A DNA stretch of 44,473 nucleotides from contig JAQTPI010000008.1 of the NCBI GenBank assembly GCA_028748975.1, positions 1 to 44,473 on the forward strand. The letters run 5' to 3'. Shown here piece after piece: positions 1 through 32,438 of the stretch. Position 1 is the stretch's first letter, and each line of letters begins with the position of its first letter. The DNA is from Patescibacteria group bacterium. Its GTDB lineage: Bacteria > Patescibacteriota > Patescibacteriia > UBA2196. A program made the position numbers and the translations under genes. Under the pieces are notes generated by a model. The model was given only the letters and a program-made list of their open reading frames with translations. It did no database searches and had not been told where the DNA came from.

Positions 1-325
1 GATCAATGAAAAGCGGCTGCTGGCCCTTATTGCCGGTTGATAATTTCACGGCAAAATCATAAGCGACTTTATTAAAAAGATATTTGACCGCGTTTTTATA
101 AGCAACGGCGGTGGTGGTCTTAAGAGTGGCTTTGATACCATCCCAAACTTTCTGTAAAATAGTTTGTTTCTCTGTGGAAACGGAATTTAGTTCTGTGGTA
201 GGTACGGGAATAGGAGTAATTACTACTTGTGCTAATGTTTTTTCTGGTATAACCAAAACCGGCGCGACGATTAGTAGTGCTAGGGAAAGCGCGATGACTA
301 AAATTAAAATATTTTTCTTTAGCAT
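1..325 (-). CDS. Partial exported/membrane-anchored hypothetical protein (N-terminus MLKKNILILVIALSLALLIVAPVLVIPEKTLAQ...)
   Basis: Reverse-strand reading frame open from ATG at 325 to the window edge; hydrophobic signal-like N-terminus. Confidence 0.75.
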   Translation of the reverse strand, partial: MLKKNILILVIALSLALLIVAPVLVIPEKTLAQVVITPIPVPTTELNSVSTEKQTILQKVWDGIKATLKTTTAVAYKNAVKYLFNKVAYDFAVKLSTGNKGQQPLFID

Positions 326-349: not shown

Positions 350-1108
350 TTATTTTAATGATTCCAAAAATATCGCCATCAATTGTTCGTCGGTAATTTG
401 ATCCAATTGTGCCTGCGTCATTTTACCGGATTCCAAAAGCAATTGGCGCACCTCGGCTGGCGTAAGTTGTTTTAATTGATTTTTTTGTTCCTCGGTCAAT
501 TCGGTGGAAGTGGTGGTTTCAGTTGGCGCGGTTGGTTCGGTGTTTAAATTTTCCGCGCCGGTTGGCAATTCAACGGTTGTTTGAGTTTCGGCTGGCGTTT
601 CTAAATTACGGCAATCACGACCGGCGGGGCAAAGCGGGTCATGGCCGCTGTCAATTTCTTGTTTGTCGCTGTAGCCATCGGAATCGGTGTCGGCCAAATA
701 GGGTGAGGTTTTATAGGTGTAGGTTTCATCATAATCCGAAAGGCCATCCTCGTCTGTGTCGGTGCTTTTCAAAGCCGCGATTTCCCCAGTAGAAAGAGTT
801 TCTGTTTCGGTATTTTGATTATTAATAACAGTGGGTGTCTCGGCCACGCCGGAAAAAGGATTTTTGATGCTGTTGGACAAACTGACAAAACCAAAAAGCA
901 AAGTGCCAAAGCCCAAAATTGCGAAGACAACCAAAACTAGACGGGGTGAGATGTTTTTTGGCTTCTCCGTTTCATTATTATTTATCTTATTATCATATAT
1001 TATATCATTTTCAACCGTGTTTTCCAAAGCAAAACCTCCGCCATTGCTGGCTTCGTTTTCTATATCCTCACCAAGATTATTTTGATTAGGATCTGGTGGA
1101 TAATTCAT
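350..1108 (-). CDS. Single-TM protein with thrombospondin type-3-like calcium-binding repeats (DTDEDGLSDYDE..DTDSDGYSDKQE)
   Basis: ORF; two DxDxDGxxD motifs, one TM helix; TATAAT lies only about 8 bp upstream of the ATG. Confidence 0.8.
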   Translation of the reverse strand: MNYPPDPNQNNLGEDIENEASNGGGFALENTVENDIIYDNKINNNETEKPKNISPRLVLVVFAILGFGTLLFGFVSLSNSIKNPFSGVAETPTVINNQNTETETLSTGEIAALKSTDTDEDGLSDYDETYTYKTSPYLADTDSDGYSDKQEIDSGHDPLCPAGRDCRNLETPAETQTTVELPTGAENLNTEPTAPTETTTSTELTEEQKNQLKQLTPAEVRQLLLESGKMTQAQLDQITDEQLMAIFLESLK

Positions 1109-4877: not shown

Positions 4878-5330
4878 TTATTTTGCTGCTAATATTTTTT
4901 TTATAGCTTTGATAAAAACGGTTGTTATCGGTTTTTTTCCGTCACGCTCGGATGAAGTCATAACCTTTTTAACATCAGTAAATTCATTTTTGTATTGTTC
5001 TAATTCTTCTTCTGTGTGTATATCACTAAAAAAAATTACAGGAATGTCTTTAATTTTTTCCTTTTTTCTTTTTGCTCTTAAGAAGCATAATCCTTCGTCC
5101 ATTCCACGTGGTTCCAGGGTTGAATTTAAAATTATCAAATCCGGCAGTGCACGTTTTAATGTTTTTAAACCATCAGGTCCGGTACACGGACCGTCTTTTA
5201 ATCTTTCGTCATCCAAATCGGGGGCGACCGCAAAACCGGCTTTTCTTATTACCTCAGCTAATTCCTGTTGCAAGACATATTCATCACAGACAATTAAGAT
5301 TCTCGGTGCTTTCTTTTCTTTCTTGGTCAT
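4878..5330 (-). CDS. Receiver-like (response-regulator) domain protein, degenerate phosphoacceptor
   Basis: RILIVCDEYVLQQELAEVIRKAGF...DLIILNSTLEP...IPVIFFS; SD GGGAGG. Confidence 0.7.
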   Translation of the reverse strand: MTKKEKKAPRILIVCDEYVLQQELAEVIRKAGFAVAPDLDDERLKDGPCTGPDGLKTLKRALPDLIILNSTLEPRGMDEGLCFLRAKRKKEKIKDIPVIFFSDIHTEEELEQYKNEFTDVKKVMTSSERDGKKPITTVFIKAIKKILAAK

Positions 5331-8500: not shown

Positions 8501-8711
8501 AACCCTCCATTTTGCGCTTGCGGCAGATGATATCCATGGCGGTGTTGGAACGCGGGTGGCCGGTGTGGAGGCCGTCGCCGGAAGGATAGGGAAACTCAAT
8601 CAAGCCGTAAAATTTCGGCTTTTTTTCGTCCACTTCCACTTCAAAAATCTTTTGGTCAGCCCAAATTTTTTGCCACTTCTTTTCTATTTCTTTGTGGTTG
8701 TATTTTTCCAT
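5568..8711 (-). CDS. leuS: Leucyl-tRNA synthetase with embedded RBBP9/YdeN-like serine hydrolase domain and repeat-derived insertions
   Basis: KKWQKIWADQKIFE start at 8711, FPYPSGDGLHTGHPR, KMSKSKGNV, TTRPDTLFGAT editing domain; hydrolase with GHSLG at 6675..7274. Confidence 0.95.
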   Translation of the reverse strand: MEKYNHKEIEKKWQKIWADQKIFEVEVDEKKPKFYGLIEFPYPSGDGLHTGHPRSNTAMDIICRKRKMEGFNVLYPIGFDSFGLPTENYAIKMGVNPKIITEKNIQIFTRQLKSLGFGFDWSRVFSTTDEDYYKWTQWIFLQMFKNGLAYKAKEAINWCTSCKVGLANEEVVNGKCERCGGEVVQKEKEQWILRITKYADRLIDDLGTVDYLEKIKTQQINWIGRSEGAEVDFSITTTPPSTAVGAPLLRKEGISSPSEGEVVRSERTGGVADTLKVFTTRPDTLFGATFMVVAPEHEIISNFESRISNFGEVKKYIEESKKKTDIERTDLAKEKTGVELKGIKAINPVNNKEIPIFVADYVLMGYGTGAIMAVPAHDTRDYEFAKKYGLEIVEVVKDIKALKHENIKTKEECFIGDGVAINSGEFDGLTTVEFKEKITAWLEEKGIGKKTVNYKLHDWIFSRQRYWGEPIPMVYCETCAKKKTTVLIIHGFGGHSQENWFPWFKKEMEARGINIFIPDMPNTDSPKLEEWLESLEKLKDKFAGDLMVIGHSLGAPAACKFIEKNNLAVKKLILVGPAGKNCLNLEGLRKAGFDESDLEVAKDFCGEEPDWKILNKLAEKKVVYLSENDPFIIASDAKKEYKALNPEFIVFENKGHFNEGYGIKEFPEILKEFAELENNGWVPVPENELPVVLPEIEDFMPTDSGDSPLAKATDWINTKCPVCGGPAKRETDVMPNWAGSNWYFIRYCDPKNNKMMVDPKKAKYWLPVDWYNGGMEHTTLHLLYSRFVWKFLYDINAVPRECGNEPYKKRTAHGMVLGEGGIKMSKSKGNVINPDDYVQKFGADTVRLYEMFMGPFDQQIPWDDKGVVGVYRFLNKVWDLQEKVNRNQKSEIGDKKLLTLLHQTIKKVGEDIENMRFNTAISAMMILVNEMEKQPELRVTDYELLITILSPFAPHLSEEIWSQLGHKKSILFESWPEYDPKLIVADEIEIGVQINGKLRDAIAISIKASEDEIKSVVLASPKVKKWLDGKEPKKIIYIKGKIVSIVV

Positions 8712-8726
8712 AGGTTTCTGTTTGTC

Positions 8727-8803
8727 ATCCCGGGCCGAGACCCGGGATCCAGGAATTGTTTTTCTGGATTCCCTCCGCCAGCTGGCGGATCGCGGGAATG
8801 ACA
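8727..8803. repeat. Dispersed palindromic repeat (gtcatcccgggc..gcgggaatgac) upstream of leuS
   Basis: Same family as 18019..18082 and the rsmA insertion at 2091..2184. Confidence 0.75.
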
Positions 8804-8854
8804 AATCCAATATTCTCATTTTACCAGTCCCCCGCCTTTTTGGCAAGAAAAAAA

Positions 8855-8878
8855 CCTCCGCCGGAAAACCGGAGGAGG
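8855..8878 (-). terminator. Intrinsic terminator CCTCCGCCGG-AAAA-CCGGAGGAGG
   Basis: Hairpin plus U-tract on minus strand, after 8897..9349 gene. Confidence 0.85.
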
Positions 8879-8896
8879 CGGGTGTAAAAAACATAT

Positions 8897-9349
8897 CTAA
8901 TCCTTTGGAGAAAGGTCTTTAATGGCTGTGCCAATATCAGTCAGTCGTACTGGTCTTTGAAGGAGACGGAAGCGTCCATTATTTATTTTACCGATCTTTT
9001 CGGCCGCAAGTATGATTCCCATGTTGCAAAGACGAGTTAACATAATCAATGGCACCGAAGAGCCGGACGGACCAGTGATTTCACTTTGACGAATTCTTTT
9101 TATGAAGTTCAGACCAAATTCCTGTAAATCCACATTTTCATAACCGGACGGTGTTTTTCTTCTATTCTCCGGAACGACAGTTTCAAAAATGATAAGGTCA
9201 AAACACTGTTTTTGAAACAACCTTTCGGCTTGGACAATATTTTTGGTGAAACAGACGTTTTCTATTTTAAGATAATTTTTCAAATAATCAATGACTGAAT
9301 CTGTTGCAAAACAAAATTCATCGGCGTCAAAATAGAGAATCTGGGTCAT
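8897..9349 (-). CDS. Receiver-like domain protein, degenerate phosphoacceptor
   Basis: ILYFDADEF...FDLIIFETVVPENR...VPLIMLTR...LLQRPVRLTDI; ATG at 9349 with GGAGG 6 nt upstream. Confidence 0.7.
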   Translation of the reverse strand: MTQILYFDADEFCFATDSVIDYLKNYLKIENVCFTKNIVQAERLFQKQCFDLIIFETVVPENRRKTPSGYENVDLQEFGLNFIKRIRQSEITGPSGSSVPLIMLTRLCNMGIILAAEKIGKINNGRFRLLQRPVRLTDIGTAIKDLSPKD

Positions 9350-9425
9350 GTTTTTCCTCCTTCTTTTTGCCCGCTTTCTGGCGGAACTGGTGATGGGTTT
9401 TGAAACAACAATTTTAAGCAATTAA

Positions 9426-9454
9426 AGCTTAGCACGGTTAAAAATTATTGTCAA
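9426..9454 (-). promoter_or_regulatory. Promoter TTGACA-N17-TAAGCT (TGC extended -10)
   Basis: Minus strand, upstream of 8897..9349. Confidence 0.75.
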
Positions 9455-9481
9455 ACTCCCCGCCTTTTTGACAAGAAAAAA

Positions 9482-9512
9482 CCTCCACCGGAAAACCGAA
9501 GGAGGTGTATGT
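9482..9512 (-). terminator. Intrinsic terminator of the 9529..9912 gene
   Basis: acctccaccggaaaaccgaaggaggt hairpin, U-tract on minus strand; resembles 8855..8878. Confidence 0.8.
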
Positions 9513-9528
9513 TGTTTGTTGAAAACGA

Positions 9529-9912
9529 TTATTTTTTCAAATTTTTGGCATCGGTTACAAAATGCCAATTGACATACAAAAATTTTCCATCAGAATATCT
9601 GAATACTAACCAGGTACTCCCCGGTCTTGCCAAATAGTAATCTTGAATAAAAATAGGAAAAAGACTTCGTTTATAGCCAAGGTATTCTACTTTTCTGGCT
9701 AAAACTCTTGGATCGCCAATTGCCAATCTGACCCAAGTTCCTTTTTTCATACGTAAGGATAAACGCGGCAAATGACTTGCACAACTGCCCACAACTTGCT
9801 CTGGTAATTTTTTTTCAGAAACAGCCACCATGATAAGGGGATTTCCTTCAAGATTCTGGGTTTCTTTGTAGGGATCATAAAAATAGTATTTCTTTTCTTT
9901 TTGTTTTACCAT
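9529..9912 (-). CDS. Hypothetical small soluble protein (127 aa)
   Basis: ATG at 9912 with GGGAGG SD. Confidence 0.7.
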   Translation of the reverse strand: MVKQKEKKYYFYDPYKETQNLEGNPLIMVAVSEKKLPEQVVGSCASHLPRLSLRMKKGTWVRLAIGDPRVLARKVEYLGYKRSLFPIFIQDYYLARPGSTWLVFRYSDGKFLYVNWHFVTDAKNLKK

Positions 9913-9986
9913 GTTTTTCCTCCCTCTTTCTCCGCTTTTTGGCGGGACTGGTGATGGGTTTTGAAACAACAATTTTAAGCAATTAA

Positions 9987-10015
9987 AGCTTAGCACGGTT
10001 AAAAATTATTGTCAA
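9987..10015 (-). promoter_or_regulatory. Promoter TTGACA-N17-TAAGCT, duplicate of 9426..9454
   Basis: Sequence identity with the neighbouring cassette leader. Confidence 0.75.
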
Positions 10016-10182
10016 ATGGGGATAAAAATGCTACACTGGTAGATGGTAAAAGTTTGTAGATTTATGCTTAAATTGTCATTCTAATTATACACGCCTAGCG
10101 GCGAATTGACCCCCTCGCACTCCCCCTTGTTAAGGGGGAGATAACCACGACGAGATTCTTCTCCGCCAGCTGGCGGATCAGA

Positions 10183-11568
10183 ATGACACACGAGAAAAAT
10201 CATATTTCTCTTCGACTCAAAAAATTTGGGCTCACTATTATAAACTCGGTTGTCGCCGGGCTGATTTTTTTATTCAAAATTGTCCGCCCAGTTTTTGGCT
10301 GGCTCTGGCTGATTGCTAAATTTTTGGGCATCATGTTTTTCAAAATTTTCATTTTGACCGCCTATAAAATTTATCTCAAAAGCAAAAACAAAATCCACCA
10401 AAAAAAAGCCGGCGGCGCGTCTTTTTTTAATCTTTTTTCCAGCAAAAATACGGTTTATGTTTTGATACTTTTGGCCGGTGTTTTAATTTTCATCAATAAT
10501 TTACAAACCAAATCCACTTTGGCTGAGGAGCTGGGCCGCGGCAGCATGATTTTTGAACTGGCCAAAACTGATGAATTCTCGGAAATCAAAGAAGGAGCGG
10601 TGATTGTTTTGCCGGAAACCGAAAAACAAAAAATAGAAAAAACCAACGGCGCTAAAAATCAAAACACCACGACGCCCGGCAGTGTTTTGGATACCGCCTT
10701 AACCAAACAAACGCAAATCACGGGCAGCAGCGAATCCATGGAAAACACTCTGGCGCAAAATAATAATCCAATTAATTTGGGTGTTTTGGTGCGGACATCG
10801 GCGCCGACCACCATGGGCACTTTGCCAGAACGAAAAGAAATTATTACCTACGCGGTGGCGGGTGGTGACACCGTGGCCAGTATTGCCAAAAAATTCGGTT
10901 TATCAATCAACACTATTCTTTGGGAAAATAAATTATCAAGCGCCAGCTTAATCCGACCGGGCCAGATTTTGACAATTTTACCAACTTCCGGCGTTTCCTA
11001 CACCGTGGCCAAAAAAGACACCTTGGCCACCATTGCCAAAAAATATGGATTGGATCAAGAACAGATTCTTTCCGCTAATAGTTTAGCTTCGGCCAATGAC
11101 ATTAAAGCCGGACAAAAATTGGTAATTCCTGGCGGCCGGCCGCCAGCCGCGCCCAAAACCACCACCTCAGGCTTGGCCTCAGCTGGTAATTTAGGCACGG
11201 CGCTGCGGCGCCTGGGCGGTTTAATTTGGCCCACGATTTCCAAGCACATTACTCAATATTTTACTTGGCGCCATTCGGGTTTGGATATTGGCAGCAAACT
11301 TGGTTTGCCAATTTATGCCGCCTTGGACGGGGTGGTGACGCACGCCGGCTGGGGCACCGGCTATGGCAATTATGTTGATGTTGATCACGGCGGCGGCAAG
11401 AAAACGCGCTATGGCCACATGTCAAAAATTTATGTGAATAAAGGACAAACGGTGCGCCAAGGCGAAGCCATCGGCGCCATTGGTTCCACCGGCTGGTCCA
11501 CTGGCCCGCATTTGCATTTTGAATATATTGTTAATGGCAGCAAGATGAATCCGCTGAGCTACCTCTAA
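10183..11568 (+). CDS. M23-family metallopeptidase with two LysM domains, membrane anchored
   Basis: YAVAGGDTVASIAKKFG.., YTVAKKDTLATIAKKYG..; HSGLDIGSKLGLPIYAALDGVVTHAGWGTGYGNYVDVDHGGG, TGPHLHFEY. Confidence 0.93.
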   Translation: MTHEKNHISLRLKKFGLTIINSVVAGLIFLFKIVRPVFGWLWLIAKFLGIMFFKIFILTAYKIYLKSKNKIHQKKAGGASFFNLFSSKNTVYVLILLAGVLIFINNLQTKSTLAEELGRGSMIFELAKTDEFSEIKEGAVIVLPETEKQKIEKTNGAKNQNTTTPGSVLDTALTKQTQITGSSESMENTLAQNNNPINLGVLVRTSAPTTMGTLPERKEIITYAVAGGDTVASIAKKFGLSINTILWENKLSSASLIRPGQILTILPTSGVSYTVAKKDTLATIAKKYGLDQEQILSANSLASANDIKAGQKLVIPGGRPPAAPKTTTSGLASAGNLGTALRRLGGLIWPTISKHITQYFTWRHSGLDIGSKLGLPIYAALDGVVTHAGWGTGYGNYVDVDHGGGKKTRYGHMSKIYVNKGQTVRQGEAIGAIGSTGWSTGPHLHFEYIVNGSKMNPLSYL

Positions 11569-11614
11569 ACTAGTATTAGAGTATTAAAAGCAATAATAGT
11601 AATAAAAGTAAAAA

Positions 11615-11643
11615 GCGATTTCATAAAACAAAATCGCTTTTTT
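11615..11643. terminator. Bidirectional hairpin between convergent M23 peptidase and pilB-like genes
   Basis: aaaaagcgattt-cataaaac-aaaatcgcttttt. Confidence 0.75.
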
Positions 11644-11681
11644 ATATTACTACTAATACTTTATTACTTTTATTACTGTTA

Positions 11682-13433
11682 CTACTCCGCCACGCGGAAC
11701 ACCTCTTCCACACTGGTAATTCCTTCCGTGGCTTTAATGAGGCCGTCGGCAACCAGAGAAATCATGCCGGCGCTTTTAGCCAAGTCGCGGATTTTATATT
11801 CAGAAATTTCATTAGACAAAATCACTTGTTCAATTTCCGAAGTCATATTAAACATTTCATAAATGCCAATTTGCCCACGATAACCAATCTGGCTGCATTC
11901 TTCGCAACCAACTGCTGTAAAAAATTTAATTTGCTCTAAATTATCAAAATTTATTTCCCTGATTTCCGCTTTCTGATTTCCGATTTCTTTTAATATTTCC
12001 ATTACTTTTTGTTTAATTCCCGGCTCCAATTCAATTTCTTTTTTGCATTTTTGACACAAGCGCCGCACCAAGCGCTGGGCAATAATTAAATTCAAAGCCG
12101 GGGCGAGCAAATAGGGTTTGGCGCCCATGGCCAAAAATCGGGGAATGGCGCCGGCGGCATCGTTAGTATGCAAAGTTGATAAAACAAGATGGCCAGTCAG
12201 AGCGGCATTAAGGGCAATGTCCACGGTTTCCAAATCACGCATTTCACCCACCATTAAAACATCGGGGTCTTGACGCACAATGGAACGAAGGCCTTTGGCA
12301 AAAGTATAATCGGCGTTTTCATCAATCTGCGACTGATTGATGCCTTGGAGTTCATATTCAATTGGGTCTTCAATAGTAATTATTTTTGTTTCGGAATTAT
12401 TCAATTCATTTAAAATGGCATAAAGCGTGGTGGTTTTACCCGAGCCGGTCGGGCCAGTGGTGATGACCATGCCATTGGGGCGCCCGATTTCGCGGCGCAG
12501 TATTTTTTCCAAAGCCGGGCGGAGTCCTAAATCGGCAAATTTTAAACTGACGGATTTGGCCATTAACAATCTCATAACCACGGATTCGCCGTAGTTCGTG
12601 GGCAGGGTGGAAACACGCACGTCAATTTTGTCGCCAACCAAAAAAATGGAAAAACGGCCATCCTGCGGCTTGTCAGAGATATTTAATTTCAGTTCAGCCA
12701 AAAGCTTCAGGCGCGAAATCAATTGCTGCCAAATTGACGATTCCAAAGTAGCGGCGGTATGCAAGACGCCATCAATGCGGTAGCGCAGTTTCACGCCATC
12801 AACCTCACACTCAATATGGATGTCCGAGGCTTTGATTTTGACGCCAGCAGCAATAATTAAAGCCACCATCTGGGTCAGTGGCACATCTTTTAATTTTTGC
12901 GCGATATCAGACAGGGAATTAATGGAAGAAGAAACACTGGCAATATCCGCCTCGGTTATTTCCACCCCCCGCGACACTTCTTTAATTTTGGGCAAAGCGT
13001 CATAAAGTTTTCGCGCGGCTTCAAAACTGACCGTACTGGTTAAAAACCATTCGTTGTTTATTTTGCCAAAATTTTCCGGTAATTTTTTCTTAACTTCTTC
13101 CAATTGTTGAATGTTATCCTCGGCAATGGCCAGGCGCACCACGTTATGCGGCGCCAGATAAAAACAAATTGTTTTTTCCGCGAAAACAAACTCTTCTGAC
13201 AGTTGGCGCAAGATATCCGGTGGAATGGCAATGCCTTTCAAATTGACATAGCCCAAACCAAGTTCTTCGGCTTTTTTCTTAACTTCGTCTTCGTGTTCGC
13301 GTTCGCTCATGTCCTGCATCTTGCGCGCCAAAACAGCGCCGGCATCGGATTGTGCCGGAACTTTAATTGCCCCGCCGGGCTGCGCCGGCTTGGCCGAATC
13401 GTCGTGTTTCAATAAATCTTCTATTGAAGACAT
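11682..13433 (-). CDS. pilB: GspE/PilB-family type IV pilus assembly ATPase
   Basis: GPTGSGKTTTLYAILNELN, Walker B/His boxes, CxxC pair; start MSSIEDLLKHDD at 13433. Confidence 0.9.
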   Translation of the reverse strand: MSSIEDLLKHDDSAKPAQPGGAIKVPAQSDAGAVLARKMQDMSEREHEDEVKKKAEELGLGYVNLKGIAIPPDILRQLSEEFVFAEKTICFYLAPHNVVRLAIAEDNIQQLEEVKKKLPENFGKINNEWFLTSTVSFEAARKLYDALPKIKEVSRGVEITEADIASVSSSINSLSDIAQKLKDVPLTQMVALIIAAGVKIKASDIHIECEVDGVKLRYRIDGVLHTAATLESSIWQQLISRLKLLAELKLNISDKPQDGRFSIFLVGDKIDVRVSTLPTNYGESVVMRLLMAKSVSLKFADLGLRPALEKILRREIGRPNGMVITTGPTGSGKTTTLYAILNELNNSETKIITIEDPIEYELQGINQSQIDENADYTFAKGLRSIVRQDPDVLMVGEMRDLETVDIALNAALTGHLVLSTLHTNDAAGAIPRFLAMGAKPYLLAPALNLIIAQRLVRRLCQKCKKEIELEPGIKQKVMEILKEIGNQKAEIREINFDNLEQIKFFTAVGCEECSQIGYRGQIGIYEMFNMTSEIEQVILSNEISEYKIRDLAKSAGMISLVADGLIKATEGITSVEEVFRVAE

Positions 13434-13623
13434 AAGCGGAATAACTAATGAATAACGAATAATGAAGAATGAAAAATGACTAATGCTGTTCATTATTCAC
13501 TATTCACTTTTCATTATTCACTATTCACTAATTATTATACCCCAAAATCCGCGAAATAAAAAACAGACCTGCGCGATTGAAGCGCGAAGGCCTGGATGAT
13601 TAAGAGTGTTTTTTGAGAGCGAA

Positions 13624-14298
13624 CTATTTTAAATCGCAGAAACAAAGAAGATAATCGTTATTATATAAATAAACAGACTCATCAGCAACACCAACCTTAA
13701 ACCACCAAGTTTTGTGGATAGATGTATAAACCCGAGATATTGACGGCATATAGCAGAAACCACTAATGGAAAGTATTCGACTATCCTCAGGAAACCTTTC
13801 CTTTTCAAGTTCCCAAGCGAGAGCCAATCCGTGTGCGCCAGTATAATAAGCGCCCAGTGTCTGATAGGTTTTCAAACAATCAGACAGCGGCACTGATCTA
13901 TTACCGACAATACCAATAATGTGAACGAGGTAGGTTTTCCCGGGAATAAGCCGATGACTCGTTTTTGCAAAATTCTCATCTGTAATTTCGTTATCAAAAA
14001 AATCGAAATCTTTCCGAGATTTGTATTTTAAATTCATCAGCTGGGTTTCGAATACATAGTCAATCGGCACCGTAAGTTCAAAGGATTCTATTCTACGAAA
14101 AAACTTTTGGTCGAGAATAATAAATTTCGAAGCGGTGCGGGTCGCCGGTGACATCCCCATAATTTTTTGATAGGCGTTATTTATCTCCTCAAGCGCTAAC
14201 ATGGGGTCGCACGTATCCGCTAAGACAAGTTCATTAACCTTGGCTTGCAGCTTAAACAGCCGCAGTCTTGCCTCGTCTACATCTTTACCATTACTCAT
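13624..14298 (-). CDS. Hypothetical protein
   Basis: ATG at 14298 with GGAGG SD; the longer ORF start lies upstream of the promoter. Confidence 0.65.
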   Translation of the reverse strand: MSNGKDVDEARLRLFKLQAKVNELVLADTCDPMLALEEINNAYQKIMGMSPATRTASKFIILDQKFFRRIESFELTVPIDYVFETQLMNLKYKSRKDFDFFDNEITDENFAKTSHRLIPGKTYLVHIIGIVGNRSVPLSDCLKTYQTLGAYYTGAHGLALAWELEKERFPEDSRILSISGFCYMPSISRVYTSIHKTWWFKVGVADESVYLYNNDYLLCFCDLK

Positions 14299-14387: not shown

Positions 14388-14415
14388 ATTCTAGCAAATC
14401 TGTATTCTTTGTCAA
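14388..14415 (-). promoter_or_regulatory. Promoter TTGACA-N16-TAGAAT (TGC extended -10)
   Basis: Minus strand, upstream of 13624..14298. Confidence 0.75.
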
Positions 14416-16178: not shown

Positions 16179-18008
16179 TTATTTTTTCCCGACAATCGCT
16201 TCAAACTCTTCTTTTTCCAGCGTTTCTTTTTCCAACAAAGCGTTCGCAATTTTATCCAGCATAACTTTCTCTGTTTTTATTATATCACAACTCTTGGCAT
16301 AGGCGTTAATGATTAAATTATCCACCTCCTTATCAATGGCCTGGGCGGTTTTTTCCGAGTAGTCGCGCTGTTCGGAAATTTCGCGGCCCAAAAAGATTAA
16401 TTCTTCGCGGTCGCCAAAAGTGCGCGGCGGAAGTTTTTCACTCATGCCAAATTCGGTGACCAAGCTTCTGGCCAAATTGGTGGCGCGTTTAAGGTCAGAG
16501 GTGGCGCCGGTCGTCACTTCGCCAAAGACAGTTTTTTCCGAAGCATGGCCGGCGAGCAAAACGGAAAGCTCATCAATAAAGTAAGAACGGGTGTGCATGT
16601 GTTTGTCTTCGCTCGGCACTTTAAAAGTATACCCACCGGCTGTGCCGCGCGAGATAATGGAAACTTTATGCACCGGGTCGGCGTTGGGCAATTTATGCGC
16701 CAAAAGCGCATGACCGGCTTCGTGGTAGGCAGTGATTTTTTTCTCTTTTTCGTTTAAGACGCGCGAACGGCGTTCCGGCCCGAGCATAACTTTTTCAATG
16801 CTTTCCAAAACTTCGTCCAAAGAAATTTTCTTTTTATTTCTCTTGGCAGTTAAAATGGCGGCTTCATTCAAAAGGTTGGCCAAATCCGCGCCGGAGAACC
16901 CGGGCGTGCGTTCGGCCACGCGATGCAAGTCCACATCTTTATTCAAGGGTTTGTTTTGCGCGTGAACTTTCAGAATTTCCACGCGGTCATTCATGTCCGG
17001 CAGATCAACTACGACGCGGCGGTCAAAACGGCCGGGACGCAAGAGTGCCGAATCCAAAACATCAGGACGATTGGTGGCAGCCAAAATGACGACGCCGGCG
17101 TTGGTTTCAAAACCATCCATTTCCACGAGTATTTGATTTAAAGTTTGTTCGCGCTCGTCATGAGAACCGCCAAGCCCGGCGCCGCGCTGGCGGCCGATGG
17201 CGTCAAGTTCATCAATAAAAATTATGCAAGGCGCGTTTTTCTTGGCTTTTTGAAAAAGAGAACGGACGCGAGAAGCGCCGACACCAACAAACATTTCCAC
17301 AAATTCCGAACCGGAAACATTGAAAAAGGGCACGCCGGCTTCGCCGGAAACAGCTTTGGCGAGCAGGGTTTTACCAGTACCGGCCGGGCCAACCAAAAGA
17401 ACACCGCGCGGAATTTTGGCGCCGACTTCGGTAAATTTTTTAGGATTGCTTAAAAATTCCACCACTTCCACCAGTTCCTGTTTGGCTTCTTTAGCGCCGG
17501 CGACATCTTTGAAAGTTGTTTTGGGTTTTTTATCTTTTTTATTTTTTTTGTCGTCTTCCGCGCTGGCGGTGTCCTGGCCAAAACCCATGGCGCGATTATT
17601 CATGCCTTGGACTTGGCGCGCCATCAGCCAGAAAAAACCGATGATGAAAAGCAGAGGAATTAGAGACGGCAAAAGAATACCAAGCCAGCCGCTTAGACCA
17701 GAGTCGGTTTTCACTTCCACTTTTAAATCTTTAATTTTGTCAGCCGGCACGTCATAATTTTTCAAAAGCTCGGCCAAGGAATCGGCGGTTTCTTTCTTGG
17801 TGGTGAATTTTTCATTGTCAGCGGTGGTGAATTCCAAAGAAGAATCTTTGACCGTAACTTGAGTTACTTCCCCATTTCTGACTTTGGCGACAAAATCGGA
17901 AATTCCAATTTCTTTGACCGTTTTATTATTATTTTGATACAAAGAAAAAAACGCGGCCAAGGCCAAAAAAATTACAACGATAATAATAAGATTTTTGAGT
18001 GTCTTCAT
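16179..18008 (-). CDS. ftsH: ATP-dependent zinc metalloprotease FtsH
   Basis: [26 protein letters not shown] region, HEAGH zinc motif; start [12 protein letters not shown] at 18008. Confidence 0.96.
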
Positions 18009-18018
18009 GTAGTACTTT

Positions 18019-18082
18019 TTGTCATCCCGGGCTTGACCCGGGATCCACTCATTATTCTGGATCCCAGCTTTCGCTGGGATGA
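18019..18082. repeat. Dispersed palindromic repeat upstream of ftsH
   Basis: gtcatcccgggcttgacccgggatcc...ggatcccagctttcgctgggatgac. Confidence 0.8.
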
Positions 18083-18190
18083 CATAAATATTAATTGTTT
18101 TAATTATAGAACAAAAAAAGAAAAAAGACAAGAAAAAACCCCACCTCGCGAGAGATGGGGCTGAAACAAAATTGATTGATGTTTATTTTT

Positions 18191-20110
18191 TTATTTCTGT
18201 TTTTCCAAAAATTTCTCCAGATCGTCGGGATTGGCTTTTTTCAGACGACTGTCTTGGAGAAGATCACTGCGTCGTTCCTCCTGCTTGAGGCGGTCCACTT
18301 CACCCTTAACCTCTCCCTTGTTTTTAAGATAGCGTGCCTGCGCCGGGCTTTCGTCCGACAGCACAAATGAAGGAATATCAAAGGTCTGGCAAGTGATTAC
18401 TTTTTCCTTAGTATCAAGATAAGTTATCGCGACTTCTTCCCCGACAGCAACGAACGGCGCCTTTGGAGTTTTTTCGTAGCTGTAGACGACCTGAAAAATT
18501 TTATTGGCGCCAGCCACAGCAAAGGGAAAGATTTGTTGCTGGCCTTGAAGCATGGGCTGGCCAACGCGGACGACCTTGCCTCTAAGGGAAATGGTCGCCA
18601 ACTTACCACCGACGGGGGCAAGCACACTGCCTGGAGCCGAATTTACTTTGGCCCGATAATTGCTGATTGCCTCTTCCAGTGTGTTACCTTTGGCATTGAT
18701 TTCATAGTTTTCCATGGAAACCAGAGAAACGCCTTTGAACTGGCCAGCATAAACCATGGGAATAACATATGTCAAGGTGCCATATAAATTACATGGCACC
18801 AGTTCCGTCGGTTCGTAGCCGGTAAAATTGTTCCACAAGGACAGTGCGGTTTCGTATGCCTTTGCTTCGGTCACGCCCTTGGCTTTGTAAAACGTGGCTT
18901 TGTCCAATCGGGAATCGATCAAAATGAAGCCGGTCAAGGCGTGGTCCTCGGAATTGGTACTGGTAAAGCCCGAAAACCACTGACAATAGCCGTCTTTGCT
19001 GTAGGTCAAAAACCAACCAGGAGTCGGCACCTGGCTTTTATCATTATGCAAGAAATTATACCACCAGCTGGAATGAACATATTCGCCCCATTTCTTGGCC
19101 TGGAAATCAAGCACGTCAAGGGGCTGAATGCGGTCAATCCAGACGGGCGCTTCATTGATCGAATAATATTTGTTTTCTCCGGTTTGGAGATTGAGAACTA
19201 CCACGCCCTTGGTGCGCAGGCCGGAATAGCCGGTCGTTCTTTCCAAAACCGAGACGGTATAGTACGGGTTCCAGTTGTCGTCGACCTCGAACGTCCAGTC
19301 GTCCAGAACCATGTTCATATAGCCGTTGTAACGCAGATAACGGTCAGCGCGGTATTCATAACAGGCGGAATTCAAGTACTTGATATGGATTTCCTGACCC
19401 TGTTTGTTGACCTGCACGGCCTGCGCATCCTGAAAAGGATCTTGCGCAGAAACACGCAGATAACCGGGGACCTGTTTGTCCTGACGCCACTTCAACCAGC
19501 CATGAAATTCCAGCGGGTAAATCCACCAGAGTTGTCCGTCGATGTACTGCTTGGTCGCTTTGCCAATTTTGTAGCGGGAACCGGGGACGGCATAGCCCGT
19601 AACCTTAAAACCGCTCAAAGCACTGTTGGCTTTCACATCTGCCGAAACCTCGGGAACCAGACAGATGAAGGCGGGGTCCATTGGTTCGATGGTCTGGGAC
19701 AGATCGCCTTTTGGCTGGGCCACCGTGCCGATGAGTTTGGCTTTTTTCTCATACTGAAAGATATCCGTCTGCTGAAAGAACCAAGCGATGATGATGATAT
19801 AAAGAAGATACCCAATGGAAATAATGAGTCCGGGTGAAGCACCCTTGGCCGATTCATAATTGTTAGATGAAGCGCCAATGATGGCGCCAATGATGGCGCC
19901 GAAAAAGATGGATCCGAAAAGTGGGCCAGGGCCATATATGCCAATAGCCGCCCCCCATTGAATCCAGTAAAGCAAAAGCCAGTAACCAATGGCGCAAAAA
20001 AAGCCAATGGTGGCTGTTCTGGTTTTGTGTTCACCCGTCATGAGGGCGCCAACGAGTGAGAGTCCAAACACAGAACCGAGTGCGACGATGAAAGAGATCA
20101 AAAGATACAT
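18191..20110 (-). CDS. Large membrane-anchored hypothetical protein (639 aa), several N-terminal TM helices
   Basis: Long ORF; GGAGG SD 7 nt upstream of ATG. Confidence 0.8.
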   Translation of the reverse strand: MYLLISFIVALGSVFGLSLVGALMTGEHKTRTATIGFFCAIGYWLLLYWIQWGAAIGIYGPGPLFGSIFFGAIIGAIIGASSNNYESAKGASPGLIISIGYLLYIIIIAWFFQQTDIFQYEKKAKLIGTVAQPKGDLSQTIEPMDPAFICLVPEVSADVKANSALSGFKVTGYAVPGSRYKIGKATKQYIDGQLWWIYPLEFHGWLKWRQDKQVPGYLRVSAQDPFQDAQAVQVNKQGQEIHIKYLNSACYEYRADRYLRYNGYMNMVLDDWTFEVDDNWNPYYTVSVLERTTGYSGLRTKGVVVLNLQTGENKYYSINEAPVWIDRIQPLDVLDFQAKKWGEYVHSSWWYNFLHNDKSQVPTPGWFLTYSKDGYCQWFSGFTSTNSEDHALTGFILIDSRLDKATFYKAKGVTEAKAYETALSLWNNFTGYEPTELVPCNLYGTLTYVIPMVYAGQFKGVSLVSMENYEINAKGNTLEEAISNYRAKVNSAPGSVLAPVGGKLATISLRGKVVRVGQPMLQGQQQIFPFAVAGANKIFQVVYSYEKTPKAPFVAVGEEVAITYLDTKEKVITCQTFDIPSFVLSDESPAQARYLKNKGEVKGEVDRLKQEERRSDLLQDSRLKKANPDDLEKFLEKQK

Positions 20111-20259
20111 GAGTGTTCCTCCTTTTTAAACGGTTTACCTGCATTTAAAACACCAACAACGAGAGATTACTTAATCTCTGTTTAAAACCTCCTTTCTTGG
20201 ATGGATTATGAAAGATTTGATATTTTTGCTTAATTTACCGCTTTTTACGGTAATAATAA

Positions 20260-20288
20260 ATTATAGCAAACTCTGAAAAACTTGTCAA
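20260..20288 (-). promoter_or_regulatory. Promoter TTGACA-N17-TATAAT (TGC extended -10)
   Basis: Minus strand, upstream of 18191..20110. Confidence 0.85.
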
Positions 20289-20309
20289 GTTTGATTAATA
20301 ATTAAATAA

Positions 20310-20345
20310 AAAAACGAGCCAAGCAGATGTTGCTTGGCTCGAACC
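20310..20345 (-). terminator. Intrinsic terminator after 20367..21200 gene
   Basis: cgagccaagca-gatgt-tgcttggctcg with U-tract on minus strand. Confidence 0.85.
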
Positions 20346-20366
20346 CAAAGGTGTTTGGGTTTGGTG

Positions 20367-21200
20367 CTACTTTTCCTTGGCTTGGGCGACCAGGAATTCC
20401 GCCACGGCGGTGTAATCCAGCCGGTGCGAAACTTTGGCGTGAGTCCGGCGGCCGGGAACATAGAAGTTCTTGTAGCCGTAACGCTTACGGCTATACAAGC
20501 TCCTTTTGGCCGAGCCCAGCGATGACTGCCATGACCGCAGCATGGGCTTTGCCGATGCGATCTGCGGGCTCTTCATCGAAACGATGGCTCGGAGAGACAG
20601 GCTCAGCTGGTCCACGACATCCGCCATTATTTTCGTGTCGATGGCGGTGTTCCAGTCAACCTCGCTGCCAATGGCGGAGAGGATGTTCACCAAGTCGGCT
20701 TTCTGGCCGGCCTTGGCAGCCCGGATCATGTCCAGCAGCAGGGTTTCCAGACGCCCGGCTTTGCGCAGATTTGCCGCATTCTGCCGGCTGACTGATTCCC
20801 GCATTTTCCGCATTTCATCGTTTGCTTCGGCCTGGAGCGCCCGCGCCGTCGCCATGACGGTGGGCTTGCCGAGGCCTTGACCGGCCGTCTGCTCTTCGAT
20901 GCCGAATCCCTCCACTTCCACCTCGGGGTGGAAGTAATAGAGGTAGCGGGCGAATCTCGACGTATTCAGCGCGGTCTTGGTCATGCCGATTTCCACGGTC
21001 AGAGCCGAGCTTTTGGTGGAAAAGAGCGTGGACATCCGGTCCAGTCCTTCCACGACGCGCAGAATGGTGGCCAGGGCGCGTTCCACGCCCTTGGGGTCGC
21101 GATGGTCCACGAAAGCCTTGGGCATGGTCAGCTTCGGCACCTTGTTTGCCCACTTGACCAGCGTTCGCGTTTTCTCAACTGGTTTCGGTTGTTTCCTCAC
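20367..21200 (-). CDS. Basic hypothetical protein (start GTG)
   Basis: AAGGAGG 8 nt upstream of GTG at 21200; visibly higher GC than neighbours. Confidence 0.75.
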   Translation of the reverse strand: MRKQPKPVEKTRTLVKWANKVPKLTMPKAFVDHRDPKGVERALATILRVVEGLDRMSTLFSTKSSALTVEIGMTKTALNTSRFARYLYYFHPEVEVEGFGIEEQTAGQGLGKPTVMATARALQAEANDEMRKMRESVSRQNAANLRKAGRLETLLLDMIRAAKAGQKADLVNILSAIGSEVDWNTAIDTKIMADVVDQLSLSLRAIVSMKSPQIASAKPMLRSWQSSLGSAKRSLYSRKRYGYKNFYVPGRRTHAKVSHRLDYTAVAEFLVAQAKEK

Positions 21201-21392
21201 GGGTTGTTTCCTCCTTAATTTAGAGGGTTCTGCCAACGGTTTTTCATTTTTTCACCGCTGACGTTGGGTTGGAAAACTGACTATTTTTTGTGCTTTTTCA
21301 CCTCCCCTTTTTGGATTTTACAAGGATAAAAATCGGCTTAAATTACTGAAAAATGAGCCTTTTTGAAGTTAACCTTCAAAGGTCATTAATTC

Positions 21393-21420
21393 ATTATAGC
21401 AAACTCATAGGATTTGTCAA
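21393..21420 (-). promoter_or_regulatory. Promoter TTGACA-N16-TATAAT (TGC extended -10)
   Basis: Minus strand, upstream of 20367..21200. Confidence 0.85.
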
Positions 21421-21477
21421 GAGGACAACTTTTAATTAAAAATTGGTGAAAAATAGTCCTTTTTCTGTCTTTGATTT

Positions 21478-21948
21478 TCAATCAGGATAACGCATGTAAG
21501 GAACGCATTTTTGATCCACGAAATCTCTGATTAAATGCGCAACTAACACACTAAGGTGGCAATTATATCTGTTTTTAACCTCGCCCGGCGGGGTGTGGTC
21601 AAAATAATATCCTATTTCTTCACTGAGAAGTTTACAAACCATATCTACTAAAAAATTTGCTGTACTTGAATACAAATTGTCGTTATAACTGTTTTTTTCA
21701 GTAAATTGATTTAAAATTTGTCCGTTTTTATTAAACACCGCCATAATAATAATTTTTTCTTTAAGCAAATGTTCGGGTTGAATAATTAAACCAAACTTGG
21801 CGCTGACTGCCACTTCTTTTTGGATGACATCCAAAATATAGTAGATTTGGTTGCCTGACAAAAAACAGAAGTTTTTATTTTGCCAAAACCATTCAGCTTC
21901 TTTTTGGCGCTGGCGCGAATCTAGAAATTTTTGGATTATTTTTAACAT
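21478..21948 (-). CDS. Hypothetical protein (156 aa)
   Basis: ORF with GGAGG SD 8 nt upstream of ATG. Confidence 0.7.
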   Translation of the reverse strand: MLKIIQKFLDSRQRQKEAEWFWQNKNFCFLSGNQIYYILDVIQKEVAVSAKFGLIIQPEHLLKEKIIIMAVFNKNGQILNQFTEKNSYNDNLYSSTANFLVDMVCKLLSEEIGYYFDHTPPGEVKNRYNCHLSVLVAHLIRDFVDQKCVPYMRYPD

Positions 21949-21997
21949 CTAAATTACCTCCTGTTTCTGATAAATTAGGTTTTGAAAGGATTAGGTA

Positions 21998-22025
21998 ATC
22001 TTAGCAAATCTATAAAATTTGTCAA
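21998..22025 (-). promoter_or_regulatory. Promoter TTGACA-N16-TAAGAT (TGC extended -10)
   Basis: Minus strand, upstream of 21478..21948. Confidence 0.75.
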
Positions 22026-22232: not shown

Positions 22233-23432
22233 TTATTTTTCTTTATTTTGATCATGAGATCCCTCGGCTTCTCCGCTCTGCGGAGCGGAGTCGCTCGGGA
22301 TAAACTGAGGGCTTTCCACTTTTTCCTCTGCTATTTCTGGCTTTGGTTTTTCACTTTTCAATGACAAGCCCAAACGATGCTCGGCTGGCTCCAAAGAAAC
22401 GATGGTGAATTCGTAGGTCTCGCCAACTTTGACCACTTCTTCGGCGTTTTCAATTTGATTATCCGATAATTCGGAAATGTGCGCCAAGCCCTGAACATCA
22501 GCATCCAATTCCACAAAAGCGCCAAATTTATCGGTTTTAACAACCTTGCCTTGGACCTTATCGCCCAGATGATATTTTTCCGCGGCTTTTTTCCAAGGGT
22601 CTTCAGTCAGGCGTTTGATGGACAAAGAAATGCGGTCGTTTTCCACGCTGATAATTTGCGCTTTGACTTTATCGCCAACTTTGAAAATTGATTTGGGATG
22701 GTCAATGCGCTGCCAAGCCAACTCTGAAATGTGCACCAGGCCTTCCAGTTTATTGTCTGGGTTTTCCGGTTTGAAAAATTCCAAAAAAGCGCCGAAGTCA
22801 ACCAAACTGGTGATGGTACCCTCCACGATGTCGCCCACGCTAAACTGGCCAATTAATTCTTTGCGCGCTTCGGCAAAAACATCTTTTTCCGAAACAATCA
22901 GTTTGTCGTCTTTTTCATTGGCATCAATGACTTTGACTTTGATTTTCTTGCCGACAAAACCGCGCAATTTTTCCAAAATTTTATTTTTATTGCCGCCTTC
23001 CACGCGCGGATAATTTTCCGCCGAAAGTTGCGACACCGGCAAAAAGCCGTTGACGTTATTCAACTGGACCAAAAGTCCGCCTTTGTTGACGTCCAAAACT
23101 TTAACTTCCACCACTTCGCCTTTGGCGCGGAAATCATTAAGTTCCTGCCAGGCCTTTTGGTGGCCGGCGGAACGGAAAGAAAGTTCCATCACGCCTTTTT
23201 CATTTTCCGCTTCTACCACAGTGGCAATGACAGAATCGCCGACTTTGAGATCGGAAAAGCGGTCAGATTCATCAGCCAGTTCGCGGCCGCGCACCAGGCC
23301 GGTAAAAATTCCGTCCACGTCCAAATACACCTCGCCTCGGGCAATGCTGACTACCTTGCCTTCCACCAAATCACCAGCCTTGGGCACCTGTCTCACATCA
23401 GAAGATTTTAAGAGATCATCAAAAGTATTCAT
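22233..23432 (-). CDS. rpsA: 30S ribosomal protein S1 (several S1 domains) with repeat-derived C-terminal tail
   Basis: Repeated GxVxxxxxxGxFVxL...GLxHISEL motifs; start MNTFDDLL at 23432. Confidence 0.9.
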   Translation of the reverse strand: MNTFDDLLKSSDVRQVPKAGDLVEGKVVSIARGEVYLDVDGIFTGLVRGRELADESDRFSDLKVGDSVIATVVEAENEKGVMELSFRSAGHQKAWQELNDFRAKGEVVEVKVLDVNKGGLLVQLNNVNGFLPVSQLSAENYPRVEGGNKNKILEKLRGFVGKKIKVKVIDANEKDDKLIVSEKDVFAEARKELIGQFSVGDIVEGTITSLVDFGAFLEFFKPENPDNKLEGLVHISELAWQRIDHPKSIFKVGDKVKAQIISVENDRISLSIKRLTEDPWKKAAEKYHLGDKVQGKVVKTDKFGAFVELDADVQGLAHISELSDNQIENAEEVVKVGETYEFTIVSLEPAEHRLGLSLKSEKPKPEIAEEKVESPQFIPSDSAPQSGEAEGSHDQNKEK

Positions 23433-23772: not shown

Positions 23773-23802
23773 TTGACAAAAATAGTCTTAGTATGCTAAA
23801 CT
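23773..23802 (+). promoter_or_regulatory. Promoter TTGACA-N18-TAAACT (TGC extended -10)
   Basis: Upstream of 23848..24126. Confidence 0.7.
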
Positions 23803-23847: not shown

Positions 23848-24126
23848 TTGAAATACCTGGAAAATATTTTAGTATTTTTTTGTAAATTATTTTTGGGAAC
23901 CGTAAAAATAATCAGTTCAATTTTTGACGGTCTAGCCAAAATACTTTCAGTTATTCTTTTTGTCATTGCGTTTCGCGCCCTCTGGACTCTGGTCGGCAAA
24001 TTGCCTGTCTTCTGGCAATCACTTATCATTCAGGTATTTTTAATTACTGGTTCGTTGTCTTTTCTGGCACTGATTACTCTGGCTATTTGGCGGCCAAAAA
24101 CATTTGACAGAATCTTCAAAAAGTAA
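23848..24126 (+). CDS. Small two-TM membrane protein (TTG start)
   Basis: GGAGG 5 nt upstream of TTG; hydrophobic segments. Confidence 0.65.
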   Translation: MKYLENILVFFCKLFLGTVKIISSIFDGLAKILSVILFVIAFRALWTLVGKLPVFWQSLIIQVFLITGSLSFLALITLAIWRPKTFDRIFKK

Positions 24127-28576: not shown

Positions 28577-28888
28577 TTAATTGCTTTCATCAATCATCAA
28601 TTGTATGGTGGAAATCATTGATTGAAGGTGCTTTAAATTAGTGCGATCATATACGCCAATAACACAGAAGGAAACAGTGTTTTTTAAATTGGAACTGGAG
28701 CCCTTGCCAATCTCCGAATTAATATAATATCCAGTTCCCCAACCTCCATGCTCTGCGTCAACCAGTAGACTCTTTTCCTTTTTCTTGGCATCGTCCACTC
28801 TCATTATTTCAATTTTGTCACGTACAAAATCTGAAGTTCCTAATGAAAACGTCAGAACAATAAGATTCTTTTTCTGAAAAGACGCCAT
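28577..28888 (-). CDS. Small hypothetical protein (103 aa)
   Basis: ATG at 28888 with GGAGG SD. Confidence 0.7.
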   Translation of the reverse strand: MASFQKKNLIVLTFSLGTSDFVRDKIEIMRVDDAKKKEKSLLVDAEHGGWGTGYYINSEIGKGSSSNLKNTVSFCVIGVYDRTNLKHLQSMISTIQLMIDESN

Positions 28889-28963
28889 GATTATCCTCCT
28901 TTTTATTCCTCCCCTTTTTCCTTCTGGCACAACTCCAAAAGGGCTTGAATTGTTGTATTTTCA

Positions 28964-29335
28964 TTATACACCAATCATATTTTCTGTCAACTCCTCCAAA
29001 ATATCTTCCGGAATCGGCACTTGGCGCTTTGGACTTACGCCCGGATACCGCCACGCCGAAATTATTTTTCTTTTTTTAGTATTTATTATTGTCTTTCCTT
29101 GTGTTTTGTTAATTGGGTTTTGAGTTTTAAACATGACCCACATTTCCGTCTTTCTTTTCGTGCCCAAACTCTGCATCACCGCGATGCAACCAGGCACAAT
29201 CGCCTCTTCGGTTCGCTCCGGATGATTAATAATTCGAACCACCCGCTGCGACGTCAAACCATAAAACTTCATTTTTTGAATGGAGTGTTTGGTCCAGGAA
29301 AATTTATCATTATCTTTAGGAATATTAAACAACAT
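28964..29335 (-). CDS. DUF4258/BrnT-like small protein
   Basis: FSWTKHSIQKMKFYGLTSQRVVRIINHPE pattern. Confidence 0.55.
   Translation of the reverse strand: MLFNIPKDNDKFSWTKHSIQKMKFYGLTSQRVVRIINHPERTEEAIVPGCIAVMQSLGTKRKTEMWVMFKTQNPINKTQGKTIINTKKRKIISAWRYPGVSPKRQVPIPEDILEELTENMIGV
28973..28990 (-). promoter_or_regulatory. Promoter TTGACA-N16-TATAAT (outer edges at 28973 and about 28995 depend on exact spacer; -35 read at about 28985)
   Basis: Minus strand GTTGACAGAAAATATGATTGGTGTATAATG upstream of 28577..28888; lies within the 3' end of 28964..29335. Confidence 0.7.
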
Positions 29336-30937: not shown

Positions 30938-31612
30938 CTAATCTTTTAGCATTTTAAGATCTGATATTACTCTAAACTCGTTTTCTGTCAAACTATAGTA
31001 ATGAACGTCAAGCGGCCCAGGCTTAAGAATAGCAAAACATTTTTTTCTAAACCAAGCACTGGGATTAATGAGTTTATCGCCTTTGGCGCAAAGCAAAAAA
31101 CCACGGTGGCTATGTCCGAAAACAGCGGCATTAATCCATTTGTGTACTTTTTTAAAACGATTAAGGATTAAATCAGCTACTTCATAAAGCAAGCTGTCTT
31201 TTTCCTTTTTAAAAAGCCGTCTGACCTTGGCTTTTAAATAGCGAAGATCAAACATACTGAAACCCAAATTATGACTCACATAAATACAATACTCTTTTGG
31301 TTGCCCGTCATAACCGTTGTAATTAAAATGTAGAACACTATCTCCGCCCTTCAAAAGATGCCAATTGTCTGGTAATTTATACTGGCTCGGCAACCTTTTG
31401 TTAAATAGTGGCACATAGTAGAAATAAACCTGAAAATCTTTTAGTGCCGGATGGCCGATGTGTTTGTCCAAAATATCTCCCGCGTGGATAATAACATTAC
31501 AACCCTTAACCTTTCCTATTTCAGCTATTTCATAAAAATCTTCGTCCGGACAATCATGAGTGTCAGAAATTAACAAAAACCTGGTCACTTTTGTCTTTTC
31601 CATGGTTTTCAT
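30938..31612 (-). CDS. Calcineurin-like metallophosphoesterase
   Basis: LLISDTHDCPDE..., IIHAGDILD, VFGHSHRG. Confidence 0.85.
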   Translation of the reverse strand: MKTMEKTKVTRFLLISDTHDCPDEDFYEIAEIGKVKGCNVIIHAGDILDKHIGHPALKDFQVYFYYVPLFNKRLPSQYKLPDNWHLLKGGDSVLHFNYNGYDGQPKEYCIYVSHNLGFSMFDLRYLKAKVRRLFKKEKDSLLYEVADLILNRFKKVHKWINAAVFGHSHRGFLLCAKGDKLINPSAWFRKKCFAILKPGPLDVHYYSLTENEFRVISDLKMLKD

Positions 31613-31838: not shown

Positions 31839-32438
31839 ATGCAGGCCAATGAATTACTTGGCTTGATTTCTGGGTTTTTGGTGGTTCCTGTCTATATAAC
31901 CTATTTTTTGCAGGTTAAAAAAGGAACCTCCGTGCCCAATCCGGCTACCTGGTCAATTTGGGTAGCGGCCATGCTTCTAAACGGAGCAACCTATTCAAAA
32001 ATGACGGGTAATTTTTTTGAAAGTTTAATTGCCATTATTGTACCTATTTTATTACTGCTGATGTTCTTTTATATCATCACCAGAAAAAAATTCTCTGCTT
32101 TAAAAAAAACAGAGGCGATTGTGCTGATTATCACTTTCTTTGTTGGAATTTTGTGGAAAATTACTAACGCCACAATTTCCAATCTTTGCTTGCAAGGAAT
32201 TTTATTATTTTCTTTTTGGCCAACCATCAGGGGATTACTTTCTGGACAAGCAACAGAAAAACCATTGCCCTGGCTTTTGGGTGTCGTCGCCTATCTCTTT
32301 ACCGTCGCGGCCAATCTATCCGATTTTCAAGGCGATTATGCCAAACTGGTCTTTCCAATCGTTAACGGAATAATCGGCAATGGTAGCGTAGGAATAATTG
32401 CCATCATTAAAAACAGAGGGGGCAATCGTGTTAAGTAA
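31839..32438 (+). CDS. PQ-loop-like multi-pass membrane protein
   Basis: VPVYITYFLQVKKGTSVPNPATWSIW; GGAGG SD. Confidence 0.7.
   Translation: MQANELLGLISGFLVVPVYITYFLQVKKGTSVPNPATWSIWVAAMLLNGATYSKMTGNFFESLIAIIVPILLLLMFFYIITRKKFSALKKTEAIVLIITFFVGILWKITNATISNLCLQGILLFSFWPTIRGLLSGQATEKPLPWLLGVVAYLFTVAANLSDFQGDYAKLVFPIVNGIIGNGSVGIIAIIKNRGGNRVK

Follow-up and report, generated by a model that had tools for sequence, protein, structure and literature searches.

The locus

The stretch of DNA analyzed here (the window; 44,473 nucleotides) is contig C8 of the Patescibacteria genome G000 (904,313 bases in 23 contigs, estimated to be 98.9% complete). An original prediction had singled out at least eleven accessory genes, each with its own promoter, a Shine-Dalgarno (SD) sequence and usually a hairpin terminator, and had set them apart from core genes without an SD. 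Three of these units, in the following called cassettes, lie side by side at 18131–22025 between ftsH and a gene for an rpsA-like S1 protein. The open reading frames (ORFs) and signals of this interval are as follows.

16179..18008, minus strand: ftsH, core flank, no SD; its ortholog G002_0440 adjoins the rpsA ortholog
18137..18162, minus strand: terminator of cassette 1, hairpin and T-run downstream of ORF 1
18191..20110, minus strand: cassette ORF 1, membrane-anchored protein of 639 amino acids, no Pfam match
20118..20124, minus strand: SD of cassette 1, AAGGAGG, 7 nt upstream of the ATG
about 20188–20195, minus strand: second AAAGGAGG in the leader of cassette 1, from the sequence
20260..20288, minus strand: promoter of cassette 1, TTGACA-17-(TGC)TATAAT, 149 nt upstream of the start
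20316..20340, minus strand: terminator of cassette 2, hairpin GAGCCAAGCAACATCTGCTTGGCTC and T-run downstream of ORF 2
20367..21200, minus strand: cassette ORF 2, about 277 amino acids, GTG start at 21200, GC-rich (0.60)
21210..21216, minus strand: SD of cassette 2, AAGGAGG, 9 nt upstream of the GTG
21393..21420, minus strand: promoter of cassette 2, TTGACA-16-(TGC)TATAAT
21478..21948, minus strand: cassette ORF 3, 156 amino acids
21956..21962, minus strand: SD of cassette 3, AGGAGGT, 7 nt upstream of the ATG
21998..22025, minus strand: promoter of cassette 3, TTGACA-16-(TGC)TAAGAT, 49 nt upstream of the ATG
22233..23432, minus strand: rpsA-like S1 protein, core flank, no SD; ortholog G002_0441

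We compared G000 with G002 (UBA2196), which belongs to the same family, lies beside Candidatus Kuenenbacteria and is the closest relative compared, and with G014, an outgroup of the same class that was about half covered. The relatives of G000 were placed in Patescibacteria by matches to ribosomal protein bS21. In G002, the ftsH and rpsA orthologs are neighbors with a gap of 127 nt, and all three cassette genes (18191, 20367 and 21478) are absent. Neither ORF 2 nor ORF 3 has a Pfam match or a homolog in G002. For the 18191 protein we found no homolog in 17 relatives; distant homologs with 28–31% identity occur in 5 of 288 genomes of the phylum (none in closer kin) as well as on plasmids and in phages. 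At 20118–20195 its leader also contains a perfect palindrome, AGAGATTAAGTAATCTCT, between the two AAGGAGG copies.

The predicted architecture was found in all eleven genes: a GGAGG-core SD lies 4–9 nt before the start, preceded by a promoter-like pair with 9–12 of 12 matches at 45–192 nt. TGC before the −10 box, described for most of them, is present in nine, and hairpin terminators were seen downstream of eight (not 13624, 21478 and 31839). Five gene starts had to be corrected, namely those of 8897 (to 9349), 9529 (to 9912), 13624 (to 14298), 20367 (to the GTG at about 21200) and 28577 (to 28888). The core genes named as a contrast, ftsH, rpoB, rpoC, gyrA, leuS, rsmA and rlmN, lack an SD, as does rpsA (22233), whose likely ATG is at 23432. 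As described, rlmN and 350..1108 carry a TATGAT or TATAAT box close to the ATG, at a distance of 6–7 nt.

Two start signals in one genome

The genome-wide scan proposed with the prediction was carried out with the composite motif TTGAC[AT]-N16-18-TANNNT followed by GGAGG-N4-8-start. It yielded 130 sites in G000, compared with 0–2 in each of five Markov shuffles. For 73 called genes the end of the motif coincides exactly with the gene start; they include 69 of the 332 genes not found in G002 and just 4 of the 474 found there, and core genes thus do not carry it at equal frequency. One gene in G002 and 22 in the covered half of G014 have the motif at their start. Exact TTGACA-15..19-TATAAT pairs occur 60 times in the genome and twice with the reversed-pattern control.

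SD-led genes make up ~21–23% of all genes in G000, against 3% in shuffles. SD strength is bimodal, with 171 genes having at least 5 matching bases, and the median energy of the duplex between SD and anti-SD is −11.2 kcal/mol for SD genes versus −0.8 kcal/mol for the others. Half of the SD genes (50%) have an upstream promoter scoring at least 11, compared with 14% of conserved non-SD genes and close to none of the shuffles. Terminators follow 46% of SD genes and 15% of conserved non-SD genes (2–3% in shuffles).

The remaining genes show a different signal. Their starts have a T at −1 in ~80% of cases (76% in an initial round that used no start-signal model for non-SD genes), within an AU-rich, G-poor upstream region reaching to −13. 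This U(−1) signal is also found inside operons and recurs in G002 and G014. In genes with a single possible ATG, T at −1 occurs in 84% of conserved compared with 10% of lineage-specific SD genes. In the 414 non-SD genes that come first in their transcription unit, the −10 box peaks exactly 6 nt before the ATG (45 genes; background ~4 per position), a leaderless-like position from which many core genes are predicted to be leaderless. Conserved genes with an SD mostly also show T at −1, and their SDs look like chance or regulatory ones. The proposal of two expression regimes in one genome is strongly supported by the genome-wide split in SD, promoter and conservation.

An alternative sigma factor is unnecessary because the cassette promoters resemble the sigma-70 consensus. 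Since these promoters are of the ordinary sigma-70 type, any shared control of the cassettes would need translation or shared leaders.

A separate observation concerns the gaps of 120–250 nt between co-directional core genes. Many contain long imperfect palindromes of several families, the 3′ arm of which ends ~8–12 nt before the ATG, for instance at C3:40495–43889 (L046:495–3889) and before ftsH at 18020–18085 of the window. In-register upstream repeats of this palindromic kind are common to 205 non-SD genes, and a fold z-score below −3 was obtained for 46% of these gaps in G000 compared with 18% in G002. Bridging from stop to start by the gap hairpins was unsupported (exterior unpaired length 19 versus 18 in shuffles).

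SD use follows gene conservation

A homolog in G002 exists for 15 of 157 SD genes (10%) and for 447 of 597 non-SD genes (75%; p = 1.6e-52), so the cassettes are far from universally conserved and syntenic. The lower rate of SD genes holds in every length bin. It also holds in the control with genes that have a single possible ATG: of the conserved ones 9 of 291 have an SD, of the lineage-specific ones 58 of 136 (p = 2.6e-24). In the covered half of G014, 16 of 72 SD genes have a homolog in G000, compared with 235 of 360 others.

Probable single-gene insertions with modular leaders

For pairs of reciprocal-best orthologs separated by SD genes alone, we scored whether the two orthologs are adjacent in G002. 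This was so in 36 of 51 cases, often with only 5–30 nt between them, and the inserted cassettes stand in either orientation. In the G014 half, 11 of 20 testable flanking pairs were adjacent as well, which makes insertion in the G000 lineage the simpler reading. The suggestion of a mobile or variable gene class is supported with respect to lineage-specific single-gene insertions and empty sites in G002. No mechanism of mobility was found: neither an integrase nor a terminal repeat nor any other machinery of this kind was identified, and no search for IntI or attC was made.

Unrelated ORFs can have the same promoter and leader. The leaders of 8897 and 9529 are 94% identical over 109 nt, from the −35 box to the ATG, after which the sequences are entirely different. 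The 9529 protein belongs to a three-member family, the other two members of which have another leader. The leaders of g0069 and g0405 are 90% identical over 102 nt and precede unrelated ORFs; such sharing was also found for g0257/g0259, g0363/g0364 and g0703/g0717. Leader similarity as such is not restricted to cassettes, as the core gaps hold even more in-register repeats, of the palindromic kind.

Most cassettes lack a Pfam match, with ~25 family rows in 60 SD proteins versus 81 in 60 lineage-specific non-SD proteins. Recognized functions include NAPRTase, ribose-phosphate pyrophosphokinase, dCMP deaminase, Nudix, viperin-like radical SAM and ThiF/E1 proteins. A phage origin was rejected: in the 60-protein sample no phage structural or replication genes were found, and PHROG matches were metabolic or of unknown function and no more frequent than in the control set. 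A search of IMG/VR with two cassettes returned no relative. Foreign codon usage was likewise discarded (r = 0.96 with the core), as was secretion as a trait of the class, signal-like N-termini being only slightly more common (24% versus 17–19%).

Two SD-led clusters were noted elsewhere in the genome. One, on C3 at ~5400–14000 (g0232–g0240), resembles NAD salvage and includes an NAPRTase-type protein together with NAD synthetase- and NadD-like members, the latter two assigned by reading their sequences only. The other, on C6 at ~16500–37000 (g0485–g0506), contains three tandem paralogs of 650 amino acids and a likely ThiF/E1-like protein.

Origin and expression of the cassettes

Taken together, this lineage probably uses two modes of translation start, the mode following the status of a gene as shared core or lineage-specific, with the cassettes representing autonomous inserted units. 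Shared core genes would start independently of an SD in an AU-rich, G-poor context with U at −1, and many would be leaderless, with the −10 box 6 nt before the ATG. Some 150 lineage-specific genes would each have a near-consensus sigma-70-type promoter, a leader of 40–150 nt and a strong SD, in many cases together with an intrinsic terminator. They would have been inserted mostly singly and in both orientations between core genes of otherwise kept order. Carrying its own signals, each unit could be expressed wherever it landed, even antisense in a core operon. We regard as shown the two classes of signal, their association with conservation, the empty sites and the sharing of leaders. We infer that the units were acquired through horizontal transfer and recombination and did not originate by duplication followed by fast divergence. 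The SD is presumably used by the ribosome, given the intact anti-SD GGATCACCTCCTTTC in four relatives (16S is absent from the G000 assembly).

Several points weigh against this explanation. Loci taken from elsewhere in the class show a smaller contrast, an SD being present in 5.6% of conserved versus 17.5% of other genes (p = 0.0013); of the eleven conserved SD genes at these loci, five are bS21. SD use in G002 is only 3.5%, which makes the trait lineage-variable, and roughly one lineage-specific gene in two lacks an SD and carries the core signal. Codon usage, similar to that of the host core, does not point directly to a foreign donor. Furthermore, orthologs average ~59% identity, so absence from G002 also fits fast-evolving genes. 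Finally, G000 is one draft genome, with genes called by a purpose-written script.

A possible, although rather unlikely, alternative is an old or de novo origin of the cassettes with quick divergence of the genes after duplication, their leaders being kept because they are functional; absence from G002 would then reflect speed or loss. The scarcity of Pfam matches fits this scenario, as do some tandem pairs that are paralogous (g0502/g0503/g0504). The empty sites with gaps of 5–30 nt and the adjacency in G014, however, point to insertion. The members of the 9529 family have different leaders, one of which is shared with an unrelated ORF, and cassettes of known function (NAPRTase, dCMP deaminase, viperin-like and ThiF) belong to families that are often transferred horizontally.

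Somewhat less likely still is a translational regulon of the cassettes on the pattern of Bacteroidota: bS21 (with bS18 and bS6) would hold the anti-SD, ribosomes poor in bS21 would favor mRNAs with an SD, and bS21 and the accessory genes would switch together. In Flavobacterium johnsoniae, the SD-led rpsU is subject to proven autoregulation by ribosomes lacking bS21 (PMC9976891). An SD precedes the bS21 gene of G000 (−11.5 kcal/mol) and that of G002 (−10.8 kcal/mol, with wobble pairs). An extended SD, GAAAGGGGGUG or AAGGAGGUG, with −14 to −18.6 kcal/mol was found in 10 of 19 relatives' loci (compared across L172–L201 and L202–L220, covering several Patescibacteria groups). It recurs in Kuenenbacteria, Falkowbacteria, Portnoybacteria and others, and the neighboring genes mostly lack an SD. 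These 10 loci exceed the mark of about −13 kcal/mol taken for an extended rpsU SD, and G000 and G002 stay below it; our duplex settings differ from those of the Bacteroidota paper. Against a regulon, the 21% of SD genes is far above the situation in F. johnsoniae, in which hardly any gene besides rpsU has an SD, and the bS21 SD of G000 does not exceed the average cassette in strength. In a structure search for bS21, the Flavobacterium chain was not among the matches, and an alignment of 12 bS21 sequences was too diverse for a genome scan. The extended SD suggests a testable Bacteroidota-like route to co-regulation. In its widest form, which we regard as doubtful, the whole accessory genome of Patescibacteria in the class would be such a regulon: SD genes and bS21 would be read preferentially by ribosomes lacking bS21, and the U(−1) core by complete ones. 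If true, ribosome composition would switch between core and accessory expression.

The SD might also merely mark stand-alone mRNAs with a leader, irrespective of gene origin, core genes in operons or without a leader needing none. Lineage-specific genes are indeed SD-led in 37 of 59 divergent compared with 16 of 62 tight-operon positions. We consider this improbable because conserved genes rarely have a cassette-type SD (here, one without T at −1) in the same contexts, with 3 of 97 divergent genes and 3 of 303 with a same-strand gap of at least 40 nt, and some conserved genes with a promoter 40–130 nt upstream still lack an SD.

That high expression is all that distinguishes the cassettes, as the original prediction also considered, is the least probable explanation: despite their near-consensus promoters and strong SDs, their codon adaptation is the lowest of three classes (0.523, versus 0.602 for conserved and 0.568 for lineage-specific non-SD genes, with a small reference of five genes), and no SD precedes tuf, fusA, rpsM or rplN.

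Comparison with known systems

Leaderless-rich bacterial genomes (PMC3160421) and −10-adjacent ORFs in Deinococcus-Thermus (PMC12340547) resemble G000 in the −10 box 6 nt before the ATG and in the many core genes without an SD. G000 differs in having a second, clean SD class that follows lineage specificity, and in that U(−1) of the core also occurs in operons.

Bacteroidota keep their anti-SD yet hardly use it (PMC9976891). Initiation with an occluded anti-SD (PMC9976891, PMC6847099) is similar in that most genes are SD-less, the anti-SD is kept in four relatives and bS21 has an extended SD in 10 of 19 relatives' loci. In G000, however, ~150 accessory genes are SD-led too, so that almost all other genes being SD-less describes G002 nearly and G000 not, and the core is marked by U at −1; any occlusion of the anti-SD would be hypothetical here.

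Integron cassettes are also single accessory genes, mostly with no assigned function, and are promoterless and arrayed behind one promoter. The units in G000 have their own promoter, often a terminator, and are dispersed single insertions. With genomic islands and other horizontally acquired genes they share lineage specificity, empty sites in relatives and lower coding scores. They differ in coming mostly one gene at a time and in their uniform transcription-translation module, which is unlike that of the host core.

Our search of the openly accessible literature turned up no publication dealing with start signals in the Patescibacteria group, which is not proof of novelty. The start signal here tells the shared core from lineage-specific insertions within one bacterial genome. 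It offers a sequence-only route to recent gene arrivals in uncultured Patescibacteria and suggests how a reduced genome could express new genes at any landing site. The extended SD of bS21 makes specialized ribosomes testable outside Bacteroidota. As a warning, a gene caller that has learned only one start signal will misplace starts in such genomes.

Further cassettes and features in the window

The other eight cassettes of the window are located as follows.

4878..5330, minus strand: receiver-domain-like protein; promoter 5380–5408, SD GGAGG
8897..9349, minus strand: cassette sharing its promoter-leader-SD with 9529; ORFs unrelated
9529..9912, minus strand: small "YYFY" family, paralogs elsewhere in the genome; leader in common with 8897
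13624..14298, minus strand: 224 amino acids from the SD-led ATG; promoter 14388–14415
23848..24126, plus strand: TTG start, SD GGAGG; promoter ~23773–23802
28577..28888, minus strand: cassette; promoter 28963–28990
30938..31612, minus strand: metallophosphatase-like protein; promoter and SD
31839..32438, plus strand: cassette; promoter 31732–31760, SD AAGGAGG

The 28577 protein has no homolog among 115 other genomes of the class. Within leuS, ARAGORN called a tRNA-Arg at 7900–7973 that was unconfirmed by Rfam and is probably false. The leucyl-tRNA synthetase itself (5568–8894) carries an inserted serine-hydrolase domain (PF06821) at residues 547–735.

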